Source of the DNA: Thiomicrospira pelophila DSM 1534
GTDB lineage: Bacteria; Pseudomonadota; Gammaproteobacteria; Thiomicrospirales; Thiomicrospiraceae
Length of the DNA stretch: 64,000 nt
Direction of reading: 5' to 3'
Assembly (NCBI RefSeq): GCF_000711195.1
Contig: NZ_JOMR01000001.1
Coordinates: forward strand, 558,001 to 622,000
The notes under the pieces are model-generated. The model saw nothing but the letters and a program-made list of their open reading frames with translations, was not told where the DNA came from and searched no databases. Made by a program: the position numbers and the translations under genes. This document shows, piece by piece, positions 6,515-59,880 of this stretch (within the stretch, counting starts at the first letter, position 1; each line of letters begins with the position of its first letter).

Positions 6515-7909
6515 TTAACAGGGAATAAAGTTGGATGTGTCATTCGGGTCACGGCATTTAATTGAGCCCGCATTAATTTGGTTAAATTCATCGTTTGTAA
6601 CTTGCGCTGGGATTTTGCCTAAGTACACTGTATTGTCAACGGACACCGGTCCAAGTACGTTGTTACCAATGTAAACAGTGTTACTGTCTTTTTTTCGTTG
6701 CATTATTATTGAGCCAGAGCCATTAATATTGCCGTGAACGATGAGTTGGTTTATGCCATTACTATTTAACTCAATGGTGGCATTAACATTGCCGCCCACT
6801 TCAATACTGTTTCCTTGATTACCATCCAAAATAATATCGGCATTTACGTCACCTTCGATGTAAATTGTTTTGTACTGTTGATCTCCAGTCAAAGGTGCAT
6901 TTAGGTCTCCGCCATTACCAGCGTCATCTTTTACAAGATATAGGGTATCGTTACCATTACCTAGGTTAATTGATGCATTGATATCGCCGATAATTAGGAC
7001 TTCATCACCATTGCTATTGTTTGTAATGATATCTAAATTGGTGCCGTCATAATCTCCCTCTAATGTACTTTCGGGTTTAAACTCAATATCTTCTGGTGGA
7101 GGTGGTGCAATCAGGTCAGATGGTAAGGACGGCGGTGTAACAGGAGCTTCAGTCGGGTCGGATGCAAAGATACTTAAATTGGTGCGTTTGATTTCGAGCG
7201 ACGATAACCAAATCAACACATCATCAAAAGCGTTGGTACCTTCGCGGTTTTGCGGAGCTTGGAAGTAAGTGGTGGCGCTGTCGGAACAGTTTTGTTGCTC
7301 ATATCCGTTGACATTGGTGCATTTATTCTGACCGTGCGATATGACTAATAAGGGTATATTGTCGGCCAATACTTGGCTCGTACCGTTTGTAATTCGAAAG
7401 TTTCCTGAGCCAGTGTCCGCCGCAGTAGGCGGCGTATCTTTATAGAAGCATGGCGGTGAGCCGGCATTGATATTGCAATTAGCGGCGCCGAAATAGCTGG
7501 CACTGTGTGCTTCATTGCTGGTGTTTGTTGTTAGGTTGGCCTGTTGGTTAACAACATAGCTAAAAGGAACACCATAGGCGTTTACCGCATGTGTGCCGAG
7601 GTCGGCATAAGGTAAATAGCCATAAGTAACATCACAACTACCATCTGTCGTCGCCCGATTTTCAGGCGGGGATTGTAAGCCAGTATTACCATCAATAGTG
7701 TTAGTTGGGCAAGGTAGATAATGATTAACGGCCACATAACTTAAAAGTGCGGCCTTAATATCTTGTAATTTTTGTTGGTCTTCTTTGAACTTGGCGGTTT
7801 CGCGCAGGGCGCTGGTGCCGGCAAAAAGTCCGCCCAATACAATGCCCAGAATGGCCAGTACAATCGCGATTTCAACAAGGGTAAAACCAGTTTGCTGTTT
7901 GCGTTTCAT
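6515..7909 (-). CDS. Pilin-like protein with C-terminal glycine/asparagine-rich repeat domain
   Basis: This 464-residue protein starts with a class III type IV pilin signal, QTGFTLVEIAIVLAILGIVLGG, with Gly at -1 and Glu at +5. Residues about 60-240 are a globular region with YLPCPTNTIDGNTG, YGYLPYADLG and paired cysteines, also seen in the two genes upstream. From about residue 290 it has valine/isoleucine-alternating repeats such as GDINASINLGNGNDTLY and GDVNADIILDGNQGNSIEV, which look like a beta-solenoid or polymer-like stalk domain. The tail has two cysteines (CRDPND and a final FIPC). It is third in a probable operon of three pilin-like genes; 24 bp separate it from the one before. Role in adhesion or in a pilus tip is inference. 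Confidence 0.7.
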   Translation of the reverse strand: MKRKQQTGFTLVEIAIVLAILGIVLGGLFAGTSALRETAKFKEDQQKLQDIKAALLSYVAVNHYLPCPTNTIDGNTGLQSPPENRATTDGSCDVTYGYLPYADLGTHAVNAYGVPFSYVVNQQANLTTNTSNEAHSASYFGAANCNINAGSPPCFYKDTPPTAADTGSGNFRITNGTSQVLADNIPLLVISHGQNKCTNVNGYEQQNCSDSATTYFQAPQNREGTNAFDDVLIWLSSLEIKRTNLSIFASDPTEAPVTPPSLPSDLIAPPPPEDIEFKPESTLEGDYDGTNLDIITNNSNGDEVLIIGDINASINLGNGNDTLYLVKDDAGNGGDLNAPLTGDQQYKTIYIEGDVNADIILDGNQGNSIEVGGNVNATIELNSNGINQLIVHGNINGSGSIIMQRKKDSNTVYIGNNVLGPVSVDNTVYLGKIPAQVTNDEFNQINAGSIKCRDPNDTSNFIPC

Positions 7910-7933
7910 CTTTTATACCTTAGTGGGTTTAGC

Positions 7934-8821
7934 TTATTCATTATGCCAATTAATCTGTTGGCTGAGCAAAGCTTTAACTTCATACATGGTGATCCAGGTC
8001 AGTTGGTCGTCGAAGTCTTGGGTAATGGGTTGTTGTTGAAAATAACGATCGCCATCACAATTCTCTTGTTCTCGGTTCGAGGATTGGTTGCAATCCTGCC
8101 AGGTCTGCGCGCCGTTTTGGCCAAAGCTAATCACTGTCAGCGGAATAATATTGGCGGCAAGTAAGCTAAGCCCAGTATCACCATCACATTCTAATGGTTG
8201 ATCATAGCAAATACGTAGTGCGCCAAGAAATGAATCGCTCGTGCCTAGTGGGTTGGTGATTTGATTGAAATAAGGTGGGGTGGAACGCTCACGCTCAACC
8301 AAATCACAACTAGTACCACAATGACTATTACACTGGCTAGATAGGCAGTGCATGGTTAAATCATCAGGGCATTGATAAAACTCATTCGTAATATCGCCAG
8401 CGTTGGCAAACACACTCGCCGAACGGCAAGCAAGACGCAAATTGTTGGCGGTCGTGGTGCTGGTGCTATTAGTGTTAGTGGCATAAAAATATGGATTGCC
8501 AAATTCATCTTGATGACCCACGCCACCAAATTCTAAATAAGGAAAAGCCCCTTGATCCGCACTGCAATCGCCGCCTGTTTCGCGGTTTTCTAGGCCATCG
8601 CCATTGGTATCCGGGCAGGGTAAATATTGATTGATTTGCAGATAACTAAGCAGCGCCAGCTTGATAGTTTGCAGTTCCTGTTCGGTTTGTTTATAGGTTT
8701 GGCGTTGCTGATTTTGACTCAACATGGAGGTAACGGATTGAATCAGAATGCCGACCAATAATAAAGCCAGCGCCATTTCTAATAAGCTAAAGCCTTTTTG
8801 GTTGGATTGGGTTAAGGACAT
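7934..8821 (-). CDS. Pilin-like protein, YLPCP family
   Basis: This 295-residue protein has the prepilin signal QKGFSLLEMALALLLVGIL (Gly -1, Glu +5). It then shows LLSYLQINQYLPCPDTNGDGLENRETGGDC and FPYLEFGG. The DTNGDG stretch resembles a calcium-binding loop. Several CxxC-like cysteine pairs follow (CLSSQCNSHCGTSC). I set the start at the ATG 8819-8821, which overlaps the stop of the upstream pilin gene by 10 bp and has GAG upstream; an upstream extension of 21 codons would lie inside that gene. The overlap suggests translational coupling. No specific function can be assigned beyond a pilus or pseudopilus part. Confidence 0.75.
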   Translation of the reverse strand: MSLTQSNQKGFSLLEMALALLLVGILIQSVTSMLSQNQQRQTYKQTEQELQTIKLALLSYLQINQYLPCPDTNGDGLENRETGGDCSADQGAFPYLEFGGVGHQDEFGNPYFYATNTNSTSTTTANNLRLACRSASVFANAGDITNEFYQCPDDLTMHCLSSQCNSHCGTSCDLVERERSTPPYFNQITNPLGTSDSFLGALRICYDQPLECDGDTGLSLLAANIIPLTVISFGQNGAQTWQDCNQSSNREQENCDGDRYFQQQPITQDFDDQLTWITMYEVKALLSQQINWHNE

Positions 8822-9684
8822 AGTATAGCTCGCCAATTTGACCCCACTGGATTGGGTTCGTGACCGGTTAGGCTGGCCGGACATGATGGACTTCCGCTTT
8901 CGGGGTTATTACATTCGTTGAACCAATGCGCAATTTGTGTATCTAACTGGCAAAGTGCGGTTCGTTGGTTTTGTATGCGAGTTTGTACCTGAGATCGCCA
9001 TTCTTGATGACTAATCGTCACCGCACGCGTACTTTGGCGCGTAAAGCGATTCAGTGTTGGATTGGTTAAGTTATCTAGTGAAATAGCACTTAAATCTGTA
9101 CCCGATGGCGGCTTTTGGTCGGATATAAAAAGAAGTGCAACTAGATCGGTTTGGTTGTCTAAGTGAATGCGTCCTTCTCCGGGTTGATTACGATTAAGTG
9201 GTGCATAACGCTGGATGGGCGGATTGTTATAATCGGAATTTTGAATCACATAGCGACTATCCACCGCATACCAAATAAAGACCGGTGATGAACGGTTATC
9301 AATAAAGCGAAAATGACGTGTCGCCAAACCGTTTGGCAATCGACCAATTACGATTTCTTCGCCTTGACCACAAGGGGTGTTGGACGTGCCATTATTATTT
9401 ATATCCGGGCAGGGCAAATAGCCGGGAGACGGAATACGATTGCCGGCATAAAAGTTACCGTTGCTGTCGGTGGTATAGAGTTCGGGTGTGGACACCGCAT
9501 GCAGTAATAGGTTTGTCTTCGCTTGCTCTAAAATATCCATTTGTTTTTGGCTGGCTTGGTGTTTAAGTTTGTTGGCTTGCGGCCCCATGGTGCTGTATAG
9601 CATCGCGGAACCCGCCATAAAGAGCATTAACACCAGTAGAAGCAAGGCATAACCTTGTTGATTGTTAGCCGGAAAGCGGGGCAT
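8812..9684 (-). CDS. PilX/pilin-like membrane-anchored protein, YLPCP family
   Basis: This 290-residue protein begins NNQQGYALLLLVLMLFMAGSAMLYSTM, a pilin-type N-terminal helix that lacks Glu at +5, as in PilX-like minor pilins. Residues about 40-70 look coiled-coil (KLKHQASQKQMDILEQAK). PGYLPCPDINNNGTSNTPCGQGEE repeats the motif found in the other two genes, again with a DxNxN calcium-like loop. Later residues TRAVTISHQEW and three tail cysteines follow. It is first in the cluster, with an AAGGACG ribosome site. No pilus assembly ATPase or prepilin peptidase is in the window, so assembly must depend on genes elsewhere. Confidence 0.7.
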   Translation of the reverse strand: MPRFPANNQQGYALLLLVLMLFMAGSAMLYSTMGPQANKLKHQASQKQMDILEQAKTNLLLHAVSTPELYTTDSNGNFYAGNRIPSPGYLPCPDINNNGTSNTPCGQGEEIVIGRLPNGLATRHFRFIDNRSSPVFIWYAVDSRYVIQNSDYNNPPIQRYAPLNRNQPGEGRIHLDNQTDLVALLFISDQKPPSGTDLSAISLDNLTNPTLNRFTRQSTRAVTISHQEWRSQVQTRIQNQRTALCQLDTQIAHWFNECNNPESGSPSCPASLTGHEPNPVGSNWRAILCP

Positions 9685-9764: not shown

Positions 9765-11039
9765 CTAAATTGGCAATTGTTCAATTAGGCGTTGTAATGC
9801 GCCGGTCTGTTGAGCAAAGCAATCTTTAGCACGTTGACCGGCTTTTTCACGTAGCTCAGGCGATTGACTTAGTTGGATGAGCTGCTGACTTAATTGCTCG
9901 ACATCTTGTGCAATCAGCAGGCCATCGCCTTGTTTAAAAGAATCATACAAGGCTTGTAGATTTTGGTGATATTGTCCCGAAATAACCGGTTTGCCTAATG
10001 CTGCGGGTTCCAAAATATTGTGTCCACCAAATGGCACTAAGCTGCCACCAATAAAGGCGACATCACTCACTGCAAACCAAAGCATTAACTCGCCAATCGT
10101 GTCAGCAAAATAGACCGATGTGTTGGTATTAATGGTTTGGTTTTGGCTGCGGCGCGCAAAGCTAACCGAGGCCTGTTGAAGTTCCTGAGCTACTTGCTCA
10201 AAACGATCCGCATGGCGTGGAACCAGGATTAATAAAGCACCAGGCCTGGTTTTAAGTAGCTGATTATGTGCTTGAAGCATTAAGGCCTCTTCACCGGCGT
10301 GGGTGCTGGCGGCGACCCAAATAAAGCGATCATTGAGCTGGTTTTGTTGACGCCACTTTTGCGCATCGACCACCAGGCCTGGTGGTATTTCAATATCAAA
10401 TTTTAAGTTGCCGAGAGTTTTGACTCGGGCCGGTTCGGCACCGAGCTGGATGAAATGTTGGCGATCAATATCAAATTGAGTCGCAATCAGGTGGGTTTGG
10501 TTTAGCGCATTTTTAACCAATTCACCGCCCCATTTTTGATAGGACTCAAACGAATCTTGTTTTAAGCGTGCATTGGCTAAAATGAGCGGAATGCCGCGCT
10601 CATAGCAGGCCTGGTACAAGTTGGGCCAAATTTCGGTTTCGATCATAATCACCAGCTTGGGTTGGATTTGATCCAGAAAACGATGAACCGCAAACGAATA
10701 GTCATACGGAATCATTTGGTGTTGAATCGGCACGGGCGAAAACTTTAAAGCTTGTAAAGCACCTTGAGTTGAGCCGTTAGTGACCGTGAGTGCATCATTG
10801 GGGTATTGCTGATGCAATTGCTTGAGTAAAGGGAAGATGGAGCGGGTTTCGCCCACTGAGACCGCATGAATCCAGATGCCGCCAGTTTGATAATTAGCAC
10901 GCTTTAAACCAAATCGAGCCCGAAAACAGTCGATGATCGGTGTATCTGGGTCAGTCGACTTACGACAACGTTTCCAACCAGAATAAACAATGAATGGAAA
11001 CGCGAGCCAAATTAGGGTTCGATAAAGCCAAAGGGTCAT
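9765..11039 (-). CDS. waaA: 3-deoxy-D-manno-octulosonic acid transferase (Kdo transferase)
   Basis: This 424-residue GT30 enzyme attaches Kdo to lipid A on the inner face of the cytoplasmic membrane. It has an N-terminal membrane anchor (LYRTLIWLAFPFIVYSGW), WIHAVSVGET with the catalytic Glu region, IETEIWPNL, and the C-terminal FIGGSLVPFGGHNILEPAALGKPV. I prefer the ATG at 11037-11039 over the adjoining GTG. It lies 12 bp after kdsD, and that gap is itself an imperfect palindrome copy (ACCAGGCCTAGT, 11041-11052). Two exact palindrome copies lie within (10239-10250 encoding TRPG; 10372-10383 encoding PGLV). Confidence 0.95.
   Translation of the reverse strand: MTLWLYRTLIWLAFPFIVYSGWKRCRKSTDPDTPIIDCFRARFGLKRANYQTGGIWIHAVSVGETRSIFPLLKQLHQQYPNDALTVTNGSTQGALQALKFSPVPIQHQMIPYDYSFAVHRFLDQIQPKLVIMIETEIWPNLYQACYERGIPLILANARLKQDSFESYQKWGGELVKNALNQTHLIATQFDIDRQHFIQLGAEPARVKTLGNLKFDIEIPPGLVVDAQKWRQQNQLNDRFIWVAASTHAGEEALMLQAHNQLLKTRPGALLILVPRHADRFEQVAQELQQASVSFARRSQNQTINTNTSVYFADTIGELMLWFAVSDVAFIGGSLVPFGGHNILEPAALGKPVISGQYHQNLQALYDSFKQGDGLLIAQDVEQLSQQLIQLSQSPELREKAGQRAKDCFAQQTGALQRLIEQLPI
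10369..10386. repeat. 18-bp extended palindrome in waaA
   Basis: The ACCAGGCCTGGT core (10372-10383) is extended by ACC and GGT to a perfect 18-bp palindrome. A second exact core lies 122 bp away at 10239-10250. Both are in frame in waaA but in different reading phases. Confidence 0.9.
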
Positions 11040-37911: not shown

Positions 37912-38124
37912 ATGAGTTCAAAAGCAACCGATTCATGTGCGCAAACGCACGTTGAAGTAACCTACGACGATTTGCCATTGTATTGCCCAACCAATAATCA
38001 GTCGGTATGGGACGCACATCCGCGCGTATTTTTGCCGATTGAAGAGACCGGCGAAGCTAAATGCCCCTACTGTGGTACGGAATACGTTTTAAAAGACTGG
38101 GATCCGAATCGTTCGGCGCACTAA
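37912..38124 (+). CDS. Small zinc-finger protein, zf-CHCC family
   Basis: This 70-residue protein carries LPLYCP, then FLPIEETGEAKCPYCGTEYVLKDW, matching the zf-CHCC family (PF10276) related to mitochondrial NDUFS6-like zinc domains. The zinc ligands are Cys in LYCP, His in DAHPRV and the CPYC pair. The ATG at 37912 has AAGGAG at ideal distance; a GTG two codons earlier overlaps that site. It overlaps the next gene by TAATG. Such proteins commonly sit next to ilvE in gammaproteobacteria; their role is not known to me. Confidence 0.85.
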   Translation: MSSKATDSCAQTHVEVTYDDLPLYCPTNNQSVWDAHPRVFLPIEETGEAKCPYCGTEYVLKDWDPNRSAH

Positions 38125-39032
38125 TGATTCGAGATTCAAACCCGACCACCAGGCCTGGTGGTCGGTCTCCCTACCAAGGCTTAAATATCGAGCCTAAGCA
38201 ATTACCTAATATTCTCTCTGCGCAACCCCAACCGACCTTATATCACGACAGTACGCATCAGCTTTTCTATCTGCAAACCGAGCAGGGCGACAAGGTCTTA
38301 AAAACGTTGAACCCCAATGCCCAACAACAAGATTTTTGGCGTAATGTACGTGTGCTATTTGGTTTAGATCTGCAACAACATCTCCAGCACCAGGCCTGGT
38401 GCTCGCGTCAATTGGCAGACTTAACCGATTTGGCGATTCCGCAGATTGAATGGGCAGTGAATCCTTCTGAAAGTTTGCAGGGATTTGTCTTAGCCTCAAA
38501 ACTCGCGGGTGAAACCGGTCAAGCAAAATGGATGAATCAGACCAATGTTGAACGCTTCGCGCGACATTTAAGTTCGTTGCATCAGGTTCAATATTCCAGC
38601 TGGGGGGTTTGGCATCAGCCGCAATATCCACTTAACGATTGGTCAACCAGACTCGCGCAGCGTTTAAAAAGCTGGATGAATTCGACCGACCACCAGGCCT
38701 GGTGGTCGGCGATAGAGCAGGCTGAGGCGCTGCATATTGATTCAGCCGTGCCCACCATGTTGGATTGTCGTTGGGATCAGTTTTTATTTGAGCAGAAGCA
38801 ATTGTCTGCCTTGGTAGATTTGGACGCGTTTGTGCTCGCGCCGGTCGAATTAACCTGGGTGATATTGGAATATCTTTTGGACGAACACCAGGCCTGGTGG
38901 TTTAAGCAAGCCTATGGCGATTTGCCCGATTTAACACAGGTGCGTGCCCCTTATCGCTTGTGGTTGTTTGGTTTGAACTTGCTAGGCGAAACCGATTTGG
39001 CGCACTGGATGGCCGCGCCCACACGGTTTTAA
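38124..39032 (+). CDS. APH-fold phosphotransferase-like protein, rich in palindrome copies
   Basis: This 302-residue protein looks like a divergent aminoglycoside-phosphotransferase/choline-kinase fold: YLQTEQGDKVLKTLN (a possible ATP-lysine strand), IPQIEWAV, then MLDCRWDQFLFEQKQLSALVDLDAF, where D-x-D could be the metal site. The classical HGDxxxxN loop is replaced by LDCRWDQF. It starts by TAATG overlap with the zinc gene. It converges on pnuT with a 4-bp overlap, so a thiamine- or sugar-kinase role is possible but only by neighbourhood. It carries four exact palindromes, including a 24-bp one 18 bases after the start codon and another inside. Confidence 0.55.
   Translation: MIRDSNPTTRPGGRSPYQGLNIEPKQLPNILSAQPQPTLYHDSTHQLFYLQTEQGDKVLKTLNPNAQQQDFWRNVRVLFGLDLQQHLQHQAWCSRQLADLTDLAIPQIEWAVNPSESLQGFVLASKLAGETGQAKWMNQTNVERFARHLSSLHQVQYSSWGVWHQPQYPLNDWSTRLAQRLKSWMNSTDHQAWWSAIEQAEALHIDSAVPTMLDCRWDQFLFEQKQLSALVDLDAFVLAPVELTWVILEYLLDEHQAWWFKQAYGDLPDLTQVRAPYRLWLFGLNLLGETDLAHWMAAPTRF
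38142..38165. repeat. 24-bp perfect palindrome near a start codon
   Basis: The ACCAGGCCTGGT core (38148-38159) is flanked by CCGACC and GGTCGG, making a perfect 24-bp palindrome. It lies 18 bases after the ATG of the APH-like gene and encodes PTTRPGGR. The identical 24-mer recurs at 38686-38709. A hairpin this close to the start codon could affect translation. Confidence 0.95.
38386..38403. repeat. 18-bp extended palindrome
   Basis: The core 38389-38400 with AGC and GCT arms is a perfect 18-bp palindrome. It encodes HQAWC in the APH-like protein. Confidence 0.9.
38686..38709. repeat. 24-bp perfect palindrome, second copy
   Basis: Same 24 bases as 38142-38165, 544 bp downstream, but in another reading phase: here it encodes DHQAWWS. 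A further exact core lies at 38887-38898 (HQAWW). The same DNA read in two phases argues that selection or copying acts on DNA, not on the peptide. Confidence 0.95.
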
Positions 39033-39640
39033 AGAGAGGCACTTTGGTGCTGTGCGCGATAAAGTTTTAACCAATTAACAAACCCATAAACCGCGAGACC
39101 AAGATAAAGCACAAACATCGCTGCAGTCAGCAAATAGCCGGTTTGCCAATAAAGCACCACCGCCGTGCTATCAATTACCAACCAATAGAGCCAGTTTTCC
39201 AATACCTTGCGTGCCATCATATAAGTGGTGAGCATGGAAAACACCATCACAAACCCGTCTAAATAGGGTTTTTGGCTAGCCTCAAACAAGGTTAATAAAC
39301 CGCCGAGTGAAAAAGTCAGCAACACGCCTAAACTAATAAAAACAGCGTGATAACCCCAGCGCCAACGATGAATGTGTAACTCAGGTTGGCTAATGCTGCC
39401 TCGGGTCCAGACATAAAAACCGTACACCGCCATGGACATGTAAAAGAAGTGTAAGAAAGATTGCATCGGCAGCATGCCGTTCCAAAACAGCAGGGTATAA
39501 ATCGCGGTGCTTACAAAAGCCGCTGGCCAACACCAAACCGATTCGCGCGCGGCTAGAATCACATAAGCGATGCCCAGCGCAACCGCAATCGCCTCCCAAA
39601 TAGATTGCTGGCTAAATTGCGCCCAAATCTCAGCAAGCAT
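39029..39640 (-). CDS. pnuT: PnuC-family permease, probably thiamine transporter PnuT
   Basis: This 203-residue protein has seven hydrophobic segments and the PnuC signature ESVWCWPAAFVSTAIYTLLFWNGMLPMQSFLHFFYMSMAVYGFYVW. PnuC proteins carry nicotinamide riboside; the PnuT branch carries thiamine and is typically found after TPP riboswitches. Here the TPP riboswitch, TonB receptor and YkoF-like protein lie upstream on the same strand, so PnuT is the better call. The start ATG (39638-39640) overlaps the end of the YkoF-like gene by 11 bp. Its 3' end overlaps the APH-like gene by 4 bp. Confidence 0.8.
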   Translation of the reverse strand: MLAEIWAQFSQQSIWEAIAVALGIAYVILAARESVWCWPAAFVSTAIYTLLFWNGMLPMQSFLHFFYMSMAVYGFYVWTRGSISQPELHIHRWRWGYHAVFISLGVLLTFSLGGLLTLFEASQKPYLDGFVMVFSMLTTYMMARKVLENWLYWLVIDSTAVVLYWQTGYLLTAAMFVLYLGLAVYGFVNWLKLYRAQHQSASL

Positions 39641-39896
39641 CAATTTTGGCCTTGGAGCGATTGACCCCGACCATTTTCATTACAAAAATGGTGTGTGGGT
39701 TTTGTTCAAATACGGTTTCAAGCTCTTTGGTCATCAAGTTCATAATCGTGCGATAGTCACCAAACACCTGAGTGCTGAGGCTATTGCGCTCAAGCACCAG
39801 GCCTGGTGCTTGTTCTAAACGCTCGATAAAGTCAATAATCGGTTGGCAAAATTCGTCTTGTAACGGGTACATACTGATATCAAGTGAAATATTCAT
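39630..39896 (-). CDS. YkoF-like thiamine/HMP-binding protein
   Basis: This 88-residue protein has the pattern MNISLDISMYPLQDEF, NSLSTQVFGDYRTIMNLMTKELE and TIFVMKMVGVN, which resembles the single YkoF domain (thiamine or hydroxymethylpyrimidine binding). Its position between a riboswitch-controlled TonB receptor and pnuT supports binding of thiamine or a precursor in the cytosol. An AAGGA site precedes the ATG. The perfect 22-bp palindrome at 39791-39812 writes APGLVLE into it. Family assignment is from memory of the motif and needs a profile search. Confidence 0.65.
   Translation of the reverse strand: MNISLDISMYPLQDEFCQPIIDFIERLEQAPGLVLERNSLSTQVFGDYRTIMNLMTKELETVFEQNPHTIFVMKMVGVNRSKAKIDAC
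39791..39812. repeat. 22-bp perfect palindrome in YkoF-like gene
   Basis: The core 39796-39807 is flanked by CAAGC and GCTTG, a perfect 22-bp palindrome. The CAAGC arms resemble those at 25959-25984 (AACAAG) and 46571-46582 (AAGC on the left). Confidence 0.95.
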
Positions 39897-39918
39897 AGGG
39901 TTATTCCTTTGTTCTTTT

Positions 39919-39983
39919 ACTGCGAAGACACGGAGTTGTTAAGCGTTAGCTTTTCACCCTCTCCCTGGGTGGGTGAGGGTGAA
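39919..39983. repeat. Intergenic repeat remnants and a CCCTC/GAGGG hairpin
   Basis: ACTGCGAAGACACGGAGT (39919-39936) resembles one arm of the 4654-4714 inverted repeat. It is followed by TTCACCCTC (39953-39961) and GAGGGTGAA (39975-39983), a 9-bp perfect stem around a GC-rich loop. Both lie in the 100-bp gap between the TonB receptor and the YkoF-like gene. The hairpin may reduce transcription into the downstream pair. Confidence 0.5.
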
Positions 39984-39996
39984 GTGTCACCTTTGG

Positions 39997-42156
39997 TTAA
40001 AACCGCACTCTCGTGGTCAAACCAACTTGGCGCGGATCGCCAAGGGCGATATATTGGTGTTCGCCGTCACCATCAAAGTGGTCAAAAAAGTAACCTCTTG
40101 TAGCATAACGCTCATCTGTTAGGTTTTTGCCCCAGAAATAGACTTCCCAGTCCTTGGCCTCATAGCCTATTCGCGCATTAGCGATGGTATAGGCTTTAGA
40201 TTTTTCATTATGTACATTGTCGAAATAAAATGCATCCATGCCTTGAACTTCGACTCGACCAAACCAGCCTTGGTCATGTCGATATTGACCACCGATTAAA
40301 TATTGATAGTTGGGCGCATGCGCTGCACCGCGATCGGCCATATCAAATTCTTCATTAATCGGCGTGCCTTTAACTTGAGTTTGTAATAATCCCAAATTAG
40401 CAAAAACCAGCCAGCGGCTATTGACCTGCCAGTCGATTTCGGTTTCTAGTCCATAGTGTTGTGCTGAATCTAAGTTTTCAGTAAAGAATACCCATTCATA
40501 ACCGCCAGGTTCATAGCTGTAACCATCAAACTGTGGATTTTGACGATCCATATAAAATAAGGTCGTCGCTGTTTTGATTGCACCGTAGTTGGAGCGTAAG
40601 CCAATTTCATAGTTATAAAGAGTTTCGGCTTCGAAGGTTAAATTTTGTTCAGTACTTTGTCCGGTATTAAAGCCGCTCGCTTTAAAACCTCGGTTAAATC
40701 CGGCAAAGGCGGTATGGCGTTCGTTGTATTTATGCGTGTAAGTTATTGAACCGCCCCAAAGGGTTTCTACTGGTTCATGTTCATCCAGTAGGGTGTAATC
40801 AAAATCAGCGTGCGGACCAACGACATTTCCACTTGCATCGTACTCAAAAGCGGATCCGAAGTTACGTTTGGTTTGCGTGAAATCTTTGCGATTATGTTCA
40901 GCCCTTATGCTGTAACTCAGCGTTTTTTGATTTGATATTGCTTGATCAAGTTGACCATATAGAGCCAATTTCTCATTGGTGAAATCACTGCTAATATCGT
41001 TGTTATAAATATCTGGACCTTCCGTTGGGCAGGTAAATCCGTAACAACTTTGAAAGCGTTCTGCGCGATCATTTGTTTCAGTTAAATGTGACGCATAAAG
41101 CCCGACGAGCCAATCGGTTGATTGATTAAAGAGTTTGCTAGAATCAGTTGATTTCCAGCGAAAATCTTGGCTAAAGTTCTGGCGTGTTTGTGTGCTTTGA
41201 TAGGTACCGTTACTCTTTTCTTCATCAAAGGCTTGCCAGTCTAAATCATAGTCGTAGTGACTTGTGTTGTCCGCAAAGCTGGTAGTGGAAGTGAGTTGAT
41301 AGTTTGAATTGCCATCATATTGGACTTTCAAAGAACTGGCATTGGCTTTTTGAGTGTCTTTACCTGGCTCATCAGAAAGACTGGTAAAGCTATTATCACG
41401 CGTAAACACATCATAGCCGTTATTAATATCAGCGTGCATGAGGCTTAAATCAAATTGAGTATCGTCACCGGCCCACCAGCGTAGTTTAGCTCGCGCGGTG
41501 AGCTCGTTTTTTTGGTTGGTATCGGTGCGGTCTAGGGTGTCGTTATCACGGAAGCCATCGCTGTTATGTTTGAACAGGCTGACACGGTATTGCGGACTTT
41601 TGTCTTCGGATGTGAAAGCGCCACTGGTCATGACGCCAAGTTCTTTCAGGTTATCCGTGCCCACGCTCGCTTCAATTAAACTTTCTTTATAAGGCGTTGG
41701 GTCGTTAGTTTGGATGTTTACCAAGCCGGCGAGGGCGCTGGCTCCATAACGTGTGCTTTGTGGGCCGCGTAATACTTCGACTTGTTTGACGTCAAATAAA
41801 TTGCCGACCATGCCGATGCCGCTGAAATCAATTTCATCGACCGCAAACCCCACACTGGCGTTGGGTGCGCCGGTGTATTCGTCACGTTCGCCCATACCGC
41901 GAATTTGGATATGACGCGGACGCGATGATTGCCCGGAAAAATTGACATTGGGGGTTTGTAATAACACATCGCCAAAATGGGTGGCGCCGCGATCTTGCAA
42001 TTCAGCTTCATCCATAATATCGACGCTGGCAGCGATATCCGTTTCGCTGGTTTCGCGTAAATCGGCATTCACGGTAATGGTAGATAAGTTGTTTTCAGCT
42101 AGTACCAGGCCTGGTATAAGGGCGATTAAAGCAAATGGAAGTGGTTTGAGTTTCAT
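39997..42156 (-). CDS. TonB-dependent outer membrane receptor, probably for thiamine
   Basis: This 719-residue protein has a signal peptide (FALIALIPGLVLA, cleaved before ENNLS), a possible TonB box STITVNA, a plug domain (VDIMDEAELQDRGATHFGDVLLQTPNVNF, then VEVLRGPQSTRYGASALAGLVNIQT) and a 22-strand barrel ending GLTTRVRF with C-terminal Phe. The last segments KNLTDERYATRGYFF are typical. A TPP riboswitch directly upstream predicts repression by thiamine pyrophosphate, so thiamine or a derivative is the likely ligand. The exact palindrome 42104-42115 lies in the signal peptide and encodes PGLV. Confidence 0.9.
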   Translation of the reverse strand: MKLKPLPFALIALIPGLVLAENNLSTITVNADLRETSETDIAASVDIMDEAELQDRGATHFGDVLLQTPNVNFSGQSSRPRHIQIRGMGERDEYTGAPNASVGFAVDEIDFSGIGMVGNLFDVKQVEVLRGPQSTRYGASALAGLVNIQTNDPTPYKESLIEASVGTDNLKELGVMTSGAFTSEDKSPQYRVSLFKHNSDGFRDNDTLDRTDTNQKNELTARAKLRWWAGDDTQFDLSLMHADINNGYDVFTRDNSFTSLSDEPGKDTQKANASSLKVQYDGNSNYQLTSTTSFADNTSHYDYDLDWQAFDEEKSNGTYQSTQTRQNFSQDFRWKSTDSSKLFNQSTDWLVGLYASHLTETNDRAERFQSCYGFTCPTEGPDIYNNDISSDFTNEKLALYGQLDQAISNQKTLSYSIRAEHNRKDFTQTKRNFGSAFEYDASGNVVGPHADFDYTLLDEHEPVETLWGGSITYTHKYNERHTAFAGFNRGFKASGFNTGQSTEQNLTFEAETLYNYEIGLRSNYGAIKTATTLFYMDRQNPQFDGYSYEPGGYEWVFFTENLDSAQHYGLETEIDWQVNSRWLVFANLGLLQTQVKGTPINEEFDMADRGAAHAPNYQYLIGGQYRHDQGWFGRVEVQGMDAFYFDNVHNEKSKAYTIANARIGYEAKDWEVYFWGKNLTDERYATRGYFFDHFDGDGEHQYIALGDPRQVGLTTRVRF

Positions 42157-42242
42157 GGTTTTCCTTTTACATATTTATGTGTGTAAAAGGACAGGAAGAC
42201 CGCGAGTTGCGTCAAGAGTTTTTGACTAAAATGGCGTGTCAT

Positions 42243-42330
42243 GCCTGTCCCTACGCTGGTATTAACCAGATCAGGTTCTTAGGGTTTCGATTTTCTGCAA
42301 TCGATCTCAGGCCGAATAGACCACCCCTTG
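42243..42330 (-). promoter_or_regulatory. TPP riboswitch (THI element)
   Basis: Read leftwards the sequence has GGGGTGGTC, the conserved GGCCTGAGA block (42305-42313), and ACCTGATCTGG followed by TTAATACCAGCGTAGGGA (42248-42276). These are the pyrimidine- and pyrophosphate-sensing helices of the TPP riboswitch in correct order. It ends about 90 bases before the TonB receptor ATG. In gammaproteobacteria such elements usually block translation or cause termination when TPP is bound. Confidence 0.97.
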
Positions 42331-42389
42331 GCAAATTTGAGCGCAAATTGTAACACAAGCACCATTTAAGCCTATGTAAAATCATTGGC

Positions 42390-46369: not shown

Positions 46370-47281
46370 GTGACCCCTGTGTTGTTTTTTCAAACGGCTT
46401 TACTCACGCTGGCTGCTTTAGTCGCTTTTGCCGCCAATGCCGTCATTTGTCGTTGGGCGTTAGAGGCGGGCTGGATTGACCCCGTTAGTTTCACCAGTTT
46501 ACGTTTAGCATCGGGTGCGATGATGTTATTTATGGTCATGAGCTTAGTATGGTGGCGCAAGCGCCCAAGCACCAGGCCTGGTGCTGAAACAATTAAAGTA
46601 TCAAAAGGCAGTTGGAAAGCGGCACTTATCTTATTTATCTACGCGATTACTTTTTCGTACGGTTATATCGAAATCAGCACCGCGACGGGTGCGTTATTGC
46701 TAGCGGCGATTGTGCAACTAACGATGCTGGGTTATGCGTTACGCGCGGGTGATCGTTTACATGGCGCAGAATGGATTGGGGTGGCGCTGGCGTTAATTGG
46801 TCTGTTGTACTTGGTTTATCCCAAATTAACCACGCCTTCTTGGTGGGGGTTGGTGGTAATCTGTATTTCGGCTTACACTTGGGCGCTTTATAGTCTAAAC
46901 GGCCGACGCTCTAAAAACCCGCTTAGCGATACCGCCTATAATTTTTACCGAACCTTGCCCTTGGTTGCGCTATCAAGTTTATTGTTTATTCCGTTTATGA
47001 ACTTAACCACCGAAGGCGTCTTGTTAGCGGTATTTTCCGGCGCAATCACCTCCGGTTTAGGCTACATTTTATGGTACAAGGCTTTGCCAGGAATCTCCTC
47101 AAGCCTTGCCTCCGCCAGCCAACTATTAGTCCCCTTAATGGCCGCGTTTGGAGCCGCTTGGTTGATTGATGAACCGATTACGCTACACTTTATGTTGGCC
47201 GCGCTTTTAATGCTTGGCGGATTGGGTTTGGTTTTATGGGGGCGACATCGTCACCGCCGATTGATTCCAACCAACCTCTAA
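46370..47281 (+). CDS. EamA/DMT family transporter
   Basis: This 303-residue protein has ten hydrophobic segments in two EamA repeats (ALVAFAANAVICRWAL ... FTSLRLASGAMML and ISAYTWALYSLNGRR ... LWYKALPGISSS). It likely exports or imports a metabolite across the inner membrane; the substrate is unknown. The best start is GTG at 46370, with TAGGAA upstream. The palindrome at 46571-46582, extended to 18 bp by AGC/GCT, encodes STRPGA in the loop between segments 2 and 3. Confidence 0.85.
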   Translation: MTPVLFFQTALLTLAALVAFAANAVICRWALEAGWIDPVSFTSLRLASGAMMLFMVMSLVWWRKRPSTRPGAETIKVSKGSWKAALILFIYAITFSYGYIEISTATGALLLAAIVQLTMLGYALRAGDRLHGAEWIGVALALIGLLYLVYPKLTTPSWWGLVVICISAYTWALYSLNGRRSKNPLSDTAYNFYRTLPLVALSSLLFIPFMNLTTEGVLLAVFSGAITSGLGYILWYKALPGISSSLASASQLLVPLMAAFGAAWLIDEPITLHFMLAALLMLGGLGLVLWGRHRHRRLIPTNL

Positions 47282-56391: not shown

Positions 56392-57114
56392 ATGAGAAAG
56401 TCTAGCCCATTATCAGCTCCCACTTTAACCATCGCCGGCCACGATTTAGCGATTAAGCGTCATCCGCGTCGTCGGCGTTTATCTTTGCGTGTGCGGGCCG
56501 GTCAAGTCGAAGTCTTGGCGCCGACCAGTGTAGCCTTCGCCCAACTTAAACAGTTTGCAAACAAGCACCAGGCCTGGTGGTTAGAGGCGTTACGTAGCCA
56601 TCCGGTTGCGCAGCCGATTGCTAAACGGGTAGCTGAAGAGGGCGCGTTTTGGCCGTTATTAGGTAATGAAATCCAACTGAGTTTTCGCGTCGGGCGACGT
56701 CAGATCGAATTATGCGATCAGCAGTTAATTTGTCAGTTTCCGCAGCCCGATAATGCTCAAGTTCGCTACAAACATCTGCAGGCCTGGTGGCGAGAATACG
56801 CTTATCAACACTTATCACAGCGTACCCAGTTTTTTGCCCAGGCTTTGGGCGAAGCACCCAGTGAGATTCAAATTAAAACCTATCGAGCGCGTTGGGGTAG
56901 CTGCGATGCGCGCCGCCGAATTCAATACAATTGGAAATTGATTTGTTTACCCAGTTGGGTGGTGGATTATGTGGTGGTGCATGAGTTATGTCACCTCAAA
57001 CAAATGAACCATTCACCGGCGTTCTGGCAACTGGTGAATCGGCTTTATCCCGATACGCCGCAAGCGAAAGCTTGGTTAAAACAGCACGGACATCAATATA
57101 TTCACCAGCTTTAA
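56392..57114 (+). CDS. YgjP-like zinc metallopeptidase (M48-like, DUF45)
   Basis: This 240-residue protein ends in YKARWGSC-like TYRARWGSCDARRRIQYNWKL and VVHELCHLKQMNHSPAFW, the HELxH...H zinc motif of the YgjP/SprT-like group. The N-terminus HPRRRRLSLRVRAGQVEVLAP is also typical. Function is unproven; the family may have a role with M48-like cleavage. An exact palindrome (56567-56578) and a near-copy (56777-56788) encode HQAWW and LQAWW. Confidence 0.88.
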   Translation: MRKSSPLSAPTLTIAGHDLAIKRHPRRRRLSLRVRAGQVEVLAPTSVAFAQLKQFANKHQAWWLEALRSHPVAQPIAKRVAEEGAFWPLLGNEIQLSFRVGRRQIELCDQQLICQFPQPDNAQVRYKHLQAWWREYAYQHLSQRTQFFAQALGEAPSEIQIKTYRARWGSCDARRRIQYNWKLICLPSWVVDYVVVHELCHLKQMNHSPAFWQLVNRLYPDTPQAKAWLKQHGHQYIHQL

Positions 57115-57141: not shown

Positions 57142-59880
57142 ATGATTTTGCATCTCAGTGCCAACTCGCGTTTAAGTGCTCACCTAAAAGTCAGCTTTGC
57201 GCATCACTCAGATGCGCCAGTTGTCGCTACACCTTTAGTGATGACTTGGTCGCAATGGTGGGCTTTTTGGCAAGATCAAGCTTTATTAAGTGGCGAGTTA
57301 AGTTGGTCTTATGATCGTGTGATTAGTGCGTTTGAAGCCACTCATCAATGGTCTTTACTGTTAGAAAAACACTCGCCTACGCCTTTACTTAACTTGGCGG
57401 ATACCGCCAAACAGCTTTACCAGGCCTGGTGCTTGTGGGTGGAGTATGGTGACTCGCAAATCTCGGCTGAATTGGAAATGGATAAAAGCCAAGAATGGCA
57501 ATTGTTTAGTCTGTGTCGTGCCGACTACCAGGCCTGGTTGTCGGCACACAATTGGTTAGATGAAACCTTATTAATGCAACAGCGCTTGACTTGGTTTAAA
57601 CAAGGGTTAGGTGAGTGTCCGAGCCAAATTAATTGGCAGGGTTTTGATAAGTTAACTCCATTTATGAATGCCTGGTGGTCGGCTTGTGAGGCGCGAGGCG
57701 CAAGTTTGACTAACCAAAGTCTTAGCTCGCTTAAGGATCAAGAAGCCGGTTTGGCGGCTGAGCCGAGCCGCCAAGTCGCGGTTTACAGCGCCGCCGATCC
57801 GCGTGATGAAGCGCAACAAGTCGCGGCTTTTTGTGTCGCGCACCTCAGTCAAGCTTTGCAACAGTTTAAGCCGTTGGATCAAGTTCGGATCGGTGTGGTC
57901 GCGCCTAATTTAGAAGACGTGAAAGCGTCCTTGAGTTATTGGTTGGACGATCAATTGTTTCAGCAGTTTGAGCCTCACCCCATTTTAGCGGAACATTCAA
58001 CCGATCGACTTTACAATATCTCGCTCGGCACCGCTTTAAGTCGTTTACCTTATATTCAGTTTATTCAACAAACGTTAAGTATGGCTTTTAATCCACATAA
58101 ATCGCTGGCATTTGAAGACTTTAGCCAATGGTTGATTTCGCCTTTTTGTGTCGGAGATCAAAGCCAACGCCATGCGTTAGACCGAAGTTTAAGACGTTTG
58201 CAATGGGCTTGGGTTAAGTGGCCGGAACTGGTCGCGCAAACTGAATCTGAGCGCTTAAACTGGCCGAAAAATTTAGCCAAGTTTCTAGAGGCTTTAACCG
58301 CCCTTAAGTTTAAGTCAACCGGCTCTTTAAATCAGTTTGTCGAGCAGGTTCAAACCTGTTTGGATAGTTTGGGCGCGTTTCGTCAAACCAGTCTGAGTTC
58401 GGATTTGTTTCAGCAACACGAAAAATTCATCGATAGTCTCGCCCAGTTTGCCAGCTTACAAGGTTTGCAAGGCCGGTTGAATATGGCGGAATGGTTGGGT
58501 TTATGGCAACGTTTTTGCAGTCAAACTTTGCACCAGGCACAAAGTACTTGGGTTCAACCGATCCAAGTAATGGGGATGTTAGAAGCTGGTGGCCAAGATT
58601 TTGATGCCTTATGGGTGATGGGCTTGGATGACGAAGCTTGGCCAAGACCCGCTCAGCCGAATGCCTTTTTGCCTTTGCGTTGGCAGCGTCAAAATCAATT
58701 GCCGCGCTGCGATGCCAGCCGCGAACTCGACTATGCTCGGCGTTTAACCACGCGCTTAGCCCAAAGTGCCGAGCAGGTGGTCATGAGTTACGCTAAACAA
58801 AAAGGCGAGGCGATGTCCATGCCCAGCCCTTTAATTAATGTGGAACATTGGCCGAGTTATCAGGCGTTAAATGTGTATTCCACTGCTCACCAGGCCTGGT
58901 GCTTGCGCCCAGCTTGCGACATGCAGGAGGATTTTAAAGCCCCGCAAATCAACGCTGGTGTGTTAGTGCCGGGTGGTTCGGGCATGTTAAGTGCGCAAAT
59001 GAAATGTCCATTAATGGCGTTTATGGATTATCGGCTGGGGGCAAAATACGGTTTGGAATCGGTCGAAGATGGTTTGGCGAGTACCGACCAGGGCTCGATT
59101 ATGCACTCAGTTTTGGAGCATTTTTGGCAACAAACCAAGACTCAGGTGTCGTTAATTTCGCTGGATGACACGGCTTTAACCGAACGGTTGAAAACCCTGT
59201 TGGATGCGGAGTTTGAACCGCTCGAAAAACGTTTTTCGCCCAGCTACGTGGCGCTCGAAAAAGCGCGGATGTTAGGTGTGCTGCAAGATTGGATGGCGTT
59301 GGAAAAAAATCGTCCCACCGCTTTTGAAGTCGTGGCCACCGAACAAGGGTTGGAGTTGGAAATTGCGCAGATTAAATTTCGCATTTCGATAGACCGGATT
59401 GATGCCACTGAAATAGGTCGAGTCTTAATCGACTACAAAACCGGCCAGGCCAGTTTGAATGATTTGTTGAAAGAACCGATTCGTGCGCCTCAGCTCGCGG
59501 TGTATTTATTGGCGGTAGCCAGTAAGGAACAAGCTGAGGTTGCGGGCTTGGGTTATGGTTTATTAAGTTCCGACAAAGGTGTGCGCTGGAGCTTGATTAG
59601 CGAAGATACCGACTTGATTGGCAAGGGTGAGCGCGCTTGGAGCCGCATTTCACAAAAGGGTGACTGGTTGGATGTGAGTTGGCCGGAATTCTTGGATTTT
59701 CTACAAAATCAAGTGACTCAGTTAGCGCAAGACGTCAAACAGGGTTTTGCGCCTATGTGGTATGAGAAAGACTCCGATTTAGTCTATTCGCCGAGTTTAC
59801 TAGCGTTACGTGTGCCTGAGGTGAAATCTCAAATCGGTGAATTGGACAACAATGGTGAAGCCGAGGAAGCCAGCGCATGA
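57142..59880 (+). CDS. PD-(D/E)XK nuclease / inactive helicase, AddB-like (TIGR03623-type DNA repair protein)
   Basis: This 912-residue protein has an AddB-like body and a C-terminal PD-(D/E)XK nuclease: STDQGSIMHSVLEHFW (H), FRISIDRIDAT (D) and VLIDYKTGQASLND (D-x-K). CPLMAFMDY contains one of the cysteines that in AddB would hold an iron-sulphur cluster, but I do not see the full set. It overlaps the next gene by 4 bp. Together they likely resect DNA ends in place of RecBCD. Three exact palindromes (57419, 57527 and 58889) encode YQAWC, YQAWL and HQAWC; the second is part of a 30-bp near-perfect palindrome. Confidence 0.85.
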   Translation: MILHLSANSRLSAHLKVSFAHHSDAPVVATPLVMTWSQWWAFWQDQALLSGELSWSYDRVISAFEATHQWSLLLEKHSPTPLLNLADTAKQLYQAWCLWVEYGDSQISAELEMDKSQEWQLFSLCRADYQAWLSAHNWLDETLLMQQRLTWFKQGLGECPSQINWQGFDKLTPFMNAWWSACEARGASLTNQSLSSLKDQEAGLAAEPSRQVAVYSAADPRDEAQQVAAFCVAHLSQALQQFKPLDQVRIGVVAPNLEDVKASLSYWLDDQLFQQFEPHPILAEHSTDRLYNISLGTALSRLPYIQFIQQTLSMAFNPHKSLAFEDFSQWLISPFCVGDQSQRHALDRSLRRLQWAWVKWPELVAQTESERLNWPKNLAKFLEALTALKFKSTGSLNQFVEQVQTCLDSLGAFRQTSLSSDLFQQHEKFIDSLAQFASLQGLQGRLNMAEWLGLWQRFCSQTLHQAQSTWVQPIQVMGMLEAGGQDFDALWVMGLDDEAWPRPAQPNAFLPLRWQRQNQLPRCDASRELDYARRLTTRLAQSAEQVVMSYAKQKGEAMSMPSPLINVEHWPSYQALNVYSTAHQAWCLRPACDMQEDFKAPQINAGVLVPGGSGMLSAQMKCPLMAFMDYRLGAKYGLESVEDGLASTDQGSIMHSVLEHFWQQTKTQVSLISLDDTALTERLKTLLDAEFEPLEKRFSPSYVALEKARMLGVLQDWMALEKNRPTAFEVVATEQGLELEIAQIKFRISIDRIDATEIGRVLIDYKTGQASLNDLLKEPIRAPQLAVYLLAVASKEQAEVAGLGYGLLSSDKGVRWSLISEDTDLIGKGERAWSRISQKGDWLDVSWPEFLDFLQNQVTQLAQDVKQGFAPMWYEKDSDLVYSPSLLALRVPEVKSQIGELDNNGEAEEASA
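57518..57547. repeat. 30-bp near-perfect palindrome
   Basis: The core 57527-57538 has one T/T mismatch on each side and then GTGCCGAC and GTCGGCAC arms. It is the longest dyad of the family here: 28 of 30 positions pair. It lies within the AddB-like gene and encodes part of CRADYQAWLSAH. Confidence 0.93.

Follow-up and report, generated by a model that had tools for sequence, protein, structure and literature searches.

Does a single gene of Thiomicrospira pelophila act as a hot spot for a palindromic DNA word, and if not, what keeps the word there? In the 64-kb window (the whole stretch of DNA that was analysed, 64,000 nucleotides), exact matching identified five copies of the 14-mer CACCAGGCCTGGTG within 1.66 kb, with starts at 38147, 38388, 38691, 38886 and 39795. 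The initial annotation had reported five exact copies in about 1.7 kb, four of them in an APH-like gene, in which one 24-bp palindrome recurred identically in a second phase (PTTRPGGR and DHQAWWS), its first instance lying 18 bases past the start. All five positions, both readings, the four copies within a gene for a 302-aa product and the distance, counted from the first base of the start codon (ATG, 38124), were confirmed. The features are listed below with their state in the sister species Thiomicrospira sp. Kmv17 (G002; the T. pelophila query genome is G000).

38124..39032, plus strand: gene for the 302-aa kinase-like product, distantly kinase/APH-like by motifs only (K60, D.RWDQ and LVDLDA in the orthologue alignment), containing copies 1-4
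38142..38165: copy 1, 24-bp perfect palindrome CCGACCACCAGGCCTGGTGGTCGG, read PTTRPGGR; same site in G002
38386..38403: copy 2, 18-bp palindrome AGCACCAGGCCTGGTGCT, read HQAWC; kept in G002
38686..38709: copy 3, the same 24-bp palindrome as copy 1, read DHQAWWS; 24-mer kept in G002
38886..38899: copy 4, 14-bp palindrome, read EHQAWW; kept in G002
39630-39896, minus strand: neighbouring gene for an 88-aa protein, containing copy 5
39791..39812: copy 5, 22-bp palindrome CAAGCACCAGGCCTGGTGCTTG, read EQAPGLVLE in the minus-strand gene; kept in G002
10371..10384, 46570..46583, 56566..56579 and 58888..58901: further exact copies of the 14-mer in the window

The 12-mer ACCAGGCCTGGT occurred 24 times in the window and the shorter core CAGGCCTG 34 times. 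The APH-like label of the initial annotation is plausible but unproven: the three motifs speak for it, whereas the product had no match in Pfam or NCBIfam and its PDB matches to aminoglycoside phosphotransferases were non-significant (E 0.34 and 1.4). The minus strand of window positions 39029-42338 holds a thiamin gene cluster with a TPP riboswitch (42230-42338), a TonB-dependent receptor and a PnuC-type transporter, in which the 88-aa protein appears YkoF/thiamine-binding-like according to a sub-threshold match. The kinase-like gene lies convergent to this cluster and may encode a thiamine kinase.

Genome-wide abundance and spacing

The word is not confined to this locus of the sulfur-oxidising bacterium. 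The G000 genome (2,108,215 bp) contained 613 copies of the 12-mer and 245 of the 14-mer, while a reversed control word had none, the chance expectation being below one; an order-2 Markov model predicted about 0.09 copies of the 12-mer on both strands together (464-kb sample). The palindromic word is therefore grossly over-represented genome-wide, as in highly iterated palindromes, and near-misses were scarcer than perfect sites (86 versus 239). In a contiguous 782 kb of G000, site spacing was Poisson, with variance/mean of 0.97-1.11, and when 613 core sites were placed at random, a maximum of at least five per 1.66 kb was reached in 56% of the simulated genomes. Random placement of the 245 14-mers gave five per 1.66 kb in about 1% of simulations, a test that was picked after the data had been seen. 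Because of the Poisson spacing and the simulation, the five-copy cluster is best regarded as the tail of a random scatter and no special feature of the gene; it is approximately the maximum expected somewhere in the genome and not clearly more than chance. The hot-spot reading of the kinase-like gene, proposed in the initial annotation, was thus rejected.

Reading frames and gene positions

In the 782 kb of G000, 176 of the 239 sites (74%) were inside ORFs and were distributed over the three frames as 79/75/22, each frame being more than 4000-fold above the codon-independence expectation. The word was accordingly present in coding and non-coding DNA and in all frames. The use of all three frames indicates a constraint on DNA and rules out peptide selection, as the initial annotation had argued from one DNA word in two phases; the sites were also conserved far beyond their surroundings. 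The remaining 63 sites, at a coding fraction of 0.91, correspond to an intergenic enrichment of about three-fold, and since ORF calls were crude (longest ORFs), these location fractions are approximate.

Intergenic sites favoured convergent gene pairs (20/57 versus a background of 17%) and avoided divergent ones (7/57 versus 28%); their scarcity in divergent regions speaks against a role as promoter operator. Between genes, convergent ones in particular, the word lengthened into hairpin-like palindromes: arms of at least 10 were found at 19 of the 57 intergenic sites and 10 of the 176 intragenic ones. At G000 positions 244614, 396341 and 750404 the copies were perfect palindromes 36-48 bp long whose ends are A/T-rich, resembling bidirectional terminators. 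One-sided near-sites showed no strand bias (36 versus 35), which ruled out a Chi/KOPS-like polar site.

Conservation between species

Alignments between G000 and G002 at 82% DNA identity showed that 31 of 33 G000 sites were letter-perfect in the sister species, compared with 11.8% of random 12-mers; the differences at sites were nearly all substitutions of one or two bases, with gaps in two cases. The orthologous G002 locus had each of the five copies at the matching position (protein 75% identical in amino acids), and two of the four intragenic palindromes were present in the 49%-identical orthologue of G004, whose protein columns read DHQAW at copy 3 and EHQAW at copy 4. A recent gain of copies in this gene is not supported by these orthologues. 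The initial annotation had taken orthologues in distant species with the same palindromes at the same sites as a sign of ordinary descent that would refute its reading, and such sharing was observed for the full set in G002 and for half of the intragenic set in G004. The palindromes of this gene are inherited members of a genome-wide set.

In word-rich species of other genera, four of 24 covered in-gene sites were exact, compared with 0.8% of same-frame control words, and in word-free species none of 37 covered sites was exact. Sites tended toward protein columns more variable than average between genera. Outside the core, the two-fold-symmetric positions +/-1 and +/-3 were the most conserved.

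Anatomy of the site and dialects among relatives

Both conservation and information content continued symmetrically past the core, and the G000 sites carried symmetric flanks with C, C/G and A at positions 7-9. Two-fold-symmetric flanks were species-specific, with AATTTACCAGGCCTGGTAAATT in G031 and A at position 9 in G000, and AT tracts were found at about positions 7-12 in G031, G067 and G029. Such a two-fold-symmetric footprint of about 18-24 bp is what one would expect of a dimeric DNA-binding protein and is far longer than a methyltransferase site.

The 12-mer was patchily distributed across 63 Thiomicrospiraceae genomes (0-718 copies), with 181-688 copies in each of the nine Thiomicrospira genomes. 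Counts ranged from 0 to 718 in genus g3 (Thiomicrorhabdus) and from 0 to 515 in g6 (Hydrogenovibrio); the single g4 genome had 289, and g2, g5 and g7 had 0-3. Hydrogenovibrio halophilus (G020) is among the word-rich relatives; Thiomicrorhabdus sp. Milos-T2 (G061) is another of the related genomes. Some low-count genomes were rich in the 8-mer with other flanks, such as AGCAGGCCTGCT in G082, and likewise G019, G023, G033 and G005; a word of this kind was absent from the stretches read in G030, G032, G035, G034, G065, G016 and more. G029, of the Thiomicrorhabdus group, contained a different palindrome, ACCGGCCGGT, in 1025 copies with TTTT/AA-tract flanks, and 24 of its 31 in-gene copies in a 100-kb sample were in one frame. 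Viral contigs gave only 20 matches among 2.9 million, each single-copy, and a viral origin was therefore rejected. Several copies of TTTCACGTGAAA, a parS-type palindrome, occurred in G029 and G035, suggesting that the origin is nearby. Other repeated words had 47 copies in G011 and 38 in G067, probably CRISPR arrays, and about 19-35 in G032, probably repetitive genes.

A chromosome-wide word with a proposed dimeric reader

The reading that we prefer, tentatively and at nearly even chances, is a family-wide highly iterated palindrome with the core CAGGCCTG (here ACCAGGCCTGGT) and weaker symmetric flanks to about +/-9-12 bp, which would be read as double-stranded DNA by a putative homodimeric protein with a chromosome-wide job. 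This sequence-specific protein could act inside the cell in chromosome organisation, repair or recombination. Selection on its job, or a coupled repair or conversion bias, would restore or retain sites where the protein sequence allows, and loss of the reader in a lineage, or a change in it, would let the whole site set decay or be replaced by another dialect. The massive excess, Poisson placement, use of all frames, near-complete conservation in the sister species, symmetric flanks and dialect switch in G029 count in favour of such a reader, as do the exact sites in word-rich species of other genera, the convergent enrichment, the divergent avoidance, the absence of strand bias, the few and single-copy viral matches and the scarcity of near-misses relative to perfect sites. 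Against it, neither the number of sites (600-1000) nor their uniform spread resembles known segregation or occlusion sites, and without some drive it is difficult to see how each one among hundreds could be under strong selection. The word is missing from many relatives, so any job would be dispensable or done otherwise.

More broadly, Thiomicrospiraceae may possess a chromosome-wide DNA-marking system in which a homodimer recognises a 12-bp palindrome, or 18-24 bp including its flanks, sites are near-fixed, and the dialect is switched or wholly lost by lineage, and which involves neither cytosine methylation nor transposition nor type IV pili; we take this possibility seriously while thinking it somewhat likelier to be wrong than right.

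Alternative explanations

A drive would be supplied if the word labelled self DNA for natural transformation, with biased uptake and recombination accumulating and conserving copies in dialects, as in Neisseriaceae and Pasteurellaceae. Such a drive would explain why so many sites are conserved. Published uptake sequences resemble the word in copy number, dialects, permissive coding positions and terminator-like hairpins between convergent genes (PMC3630211, PMC1852404); in Simonsiella, DUS pairs in dyad arrangement have been reported (PMC3630211), and ComEC was found in 57 of the 63 genomes. The Thiomicrospiraceae word shows conserved copies by the hundreds and more, dialects among relatives and an association with terminator-like hairpins between genes, whereas neither a type IV competence pilus nor a ComP-type receptor was found in the word-rich genomes searched. 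A true type IV pilus PilM was identified in only one of the 63 genomes (G022, which is not word-rich), the remaining PilM matches being weak and at FtsA/MreB lengths, and the ComP_DUS family (PF16732) had zero matches above the cut-off. Uptake by a type IV pilus was rejected since a true PilM is missing from all rich genomes and ComP is missing. In addition, ComEC presence does not track the word, known uptake words are not palindromes (PMC1939737), and none of the three prepilin genes detected in G000 is in a recognisable type IV pilus set. We consider an uptake label unlikely. The N_methyl matches of G002, considered as competence pilins, turned out to be type II secretion pseudopilins. Window positions 6515-9684 contain a run of three genes. 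Prepilin N-methylation motifs and long, unusual C-terminal parts mark two of them, and the other has no Pfam match; those two are among the only three prepilin-like genes detected genome-wide in G000.

Alternatively, the word could be a by-product of the HIP1 type, in which an orphan methyltransferase and methyl-directed repair turn near-sites into the palindrome. The word is palindromic, GC-rich, highly iterated and lengthened by palindromic flanks, and in cyanobacteria, for which the HIP1 methylation model requires a cognate cytosine methyltransferase, alternate HIPs come with methyltransferases that match them (PMC4390886). However, the cytosine methyltransferase family PF00145 was absent from every Thiomicrospira genome searched, and many word-rich genomes, among them G002, G004, G020 and G067, had no PF01555, nor did the dialect genome G029. 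A cognate DNA methyltransferase of PF00145 or PF01555, the two families covered, is therefore lacking in many word-rich genomes, and a methyltransferase-driven HIP was rejected for these two because their profiles do not track the word. The 12-24 bp footprint also far exceeds the length of a methyltransferase site, and this explanation seems to us distinctly improbable.

For the kinase-like gene itself, the initial annotation had suggested that translation could be controlled by a hairpin in the mRNA shortly after the start codon. Palindrome 1 is predicted to form a stable 10-bp hairpin with a GGCC loop at +18 (z -3.65), and it is kept in G002 as a 26-bp palindrome, in which the outer C-G pairs have become T-A on both sides. 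These outer pairs shift jointly from CC..GG in G000 to TT..AA in G002 despite P to L and R to Q replacements, and the paired changes are suggestive for that one site. The first 60 nt of ORFs in the 782-kb sample contained 22 sites versus about 10 expected, which, given crude start calls, may partly be upstream sequence. Yet the conserved thing is a DNA word located anywhere in genes, the G004 orthologue lacks the N-terminal stretch, and the hairpin is one of hundreds. Because intragenic flank pairing overall was not above expectation (z 1.0), which led us to reject selection for 24-bp hairpins inside genes, the hairpin at the first site is probably incidental, and translational control by it is very improbable.

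A REP/RAYT-like mobile palindrome or other insertion element would fit the hundreds of copies and the identical 24-mers within one gene, but is hardly credible: 74% of copies are intragenic and not extragenic, the Y1 tyrosine transposase (Y1_Tnp) does not track the word and is absent from several word-rich genomes, with G001, G005, G007, G013 and G020 lacking it, and sister-species differences are nearly all substitutions of one or two bases, not insertions, so that transposition was rejected for want of clear insertions in the G000-G002 alignments.

Significance and comparison with known systems

No paper on the word ACCAGGCCTGGT was found in the open-access papers searched. Its frequency and palindromic form place it among the highly iterated palindromes, but it is longer than the cyanobacterial ones and lacks the methyltransferase association typical of them. 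The cause of such palindromes has been open since HIP1, and the Thiomicrospira word is strongly conserved in addition to being longer, while lacking the methyltransferases that the leading model needs. Close relatives with none, few or a different word constitute a natural experiment for finding the responsible gene. Uptake words are known from Neisseriaceae and Pasteurellaceae only (PMC12616744), and if the word were an uptake label after all, this would be the third bacterial family with one.

Cyanobacterial HIP1 (GCGATCGC) and the alternate HIPs share with it palindromy, hundreds to thousands of copies, palindromic extensions and alternate words in relatives (PMC4390886). They differ in that the Thiomicrospira word has a core of 12 bp within a symmetric footprint of 18-24 bp, a lower density and another phylum as host, and many word-rich Thiomicrospiraceae have no cytosine methyltransferase family. 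The DUS of Neisseriaceae and the USS of Pasteurellaceae are alike in copy number, dialects, permissive coding positions and intergenic hairpins (PMC3630211, PMC1852404), whereas the Thiomicrospira word is a perfect palindrome, and neither ComP nor the PilM of a type IV pilus was found with it. REP elements with RAYT transposases are likewise iterated palindromes, while the present word is not extragenic, its transposase association is inconsistent and insertions were not seen. The palindromic chromosome sites of the Noc/SlmA/ParB type, which are 12-16 bp long and read by dimers, resemble it in two-fold symmetry and length. In contrast to them, the Thiomicrospira word has hundreds more sites, which occur in the stretch sampled near 1.2 Mb, the probable terminus side, as they do elsewhere.
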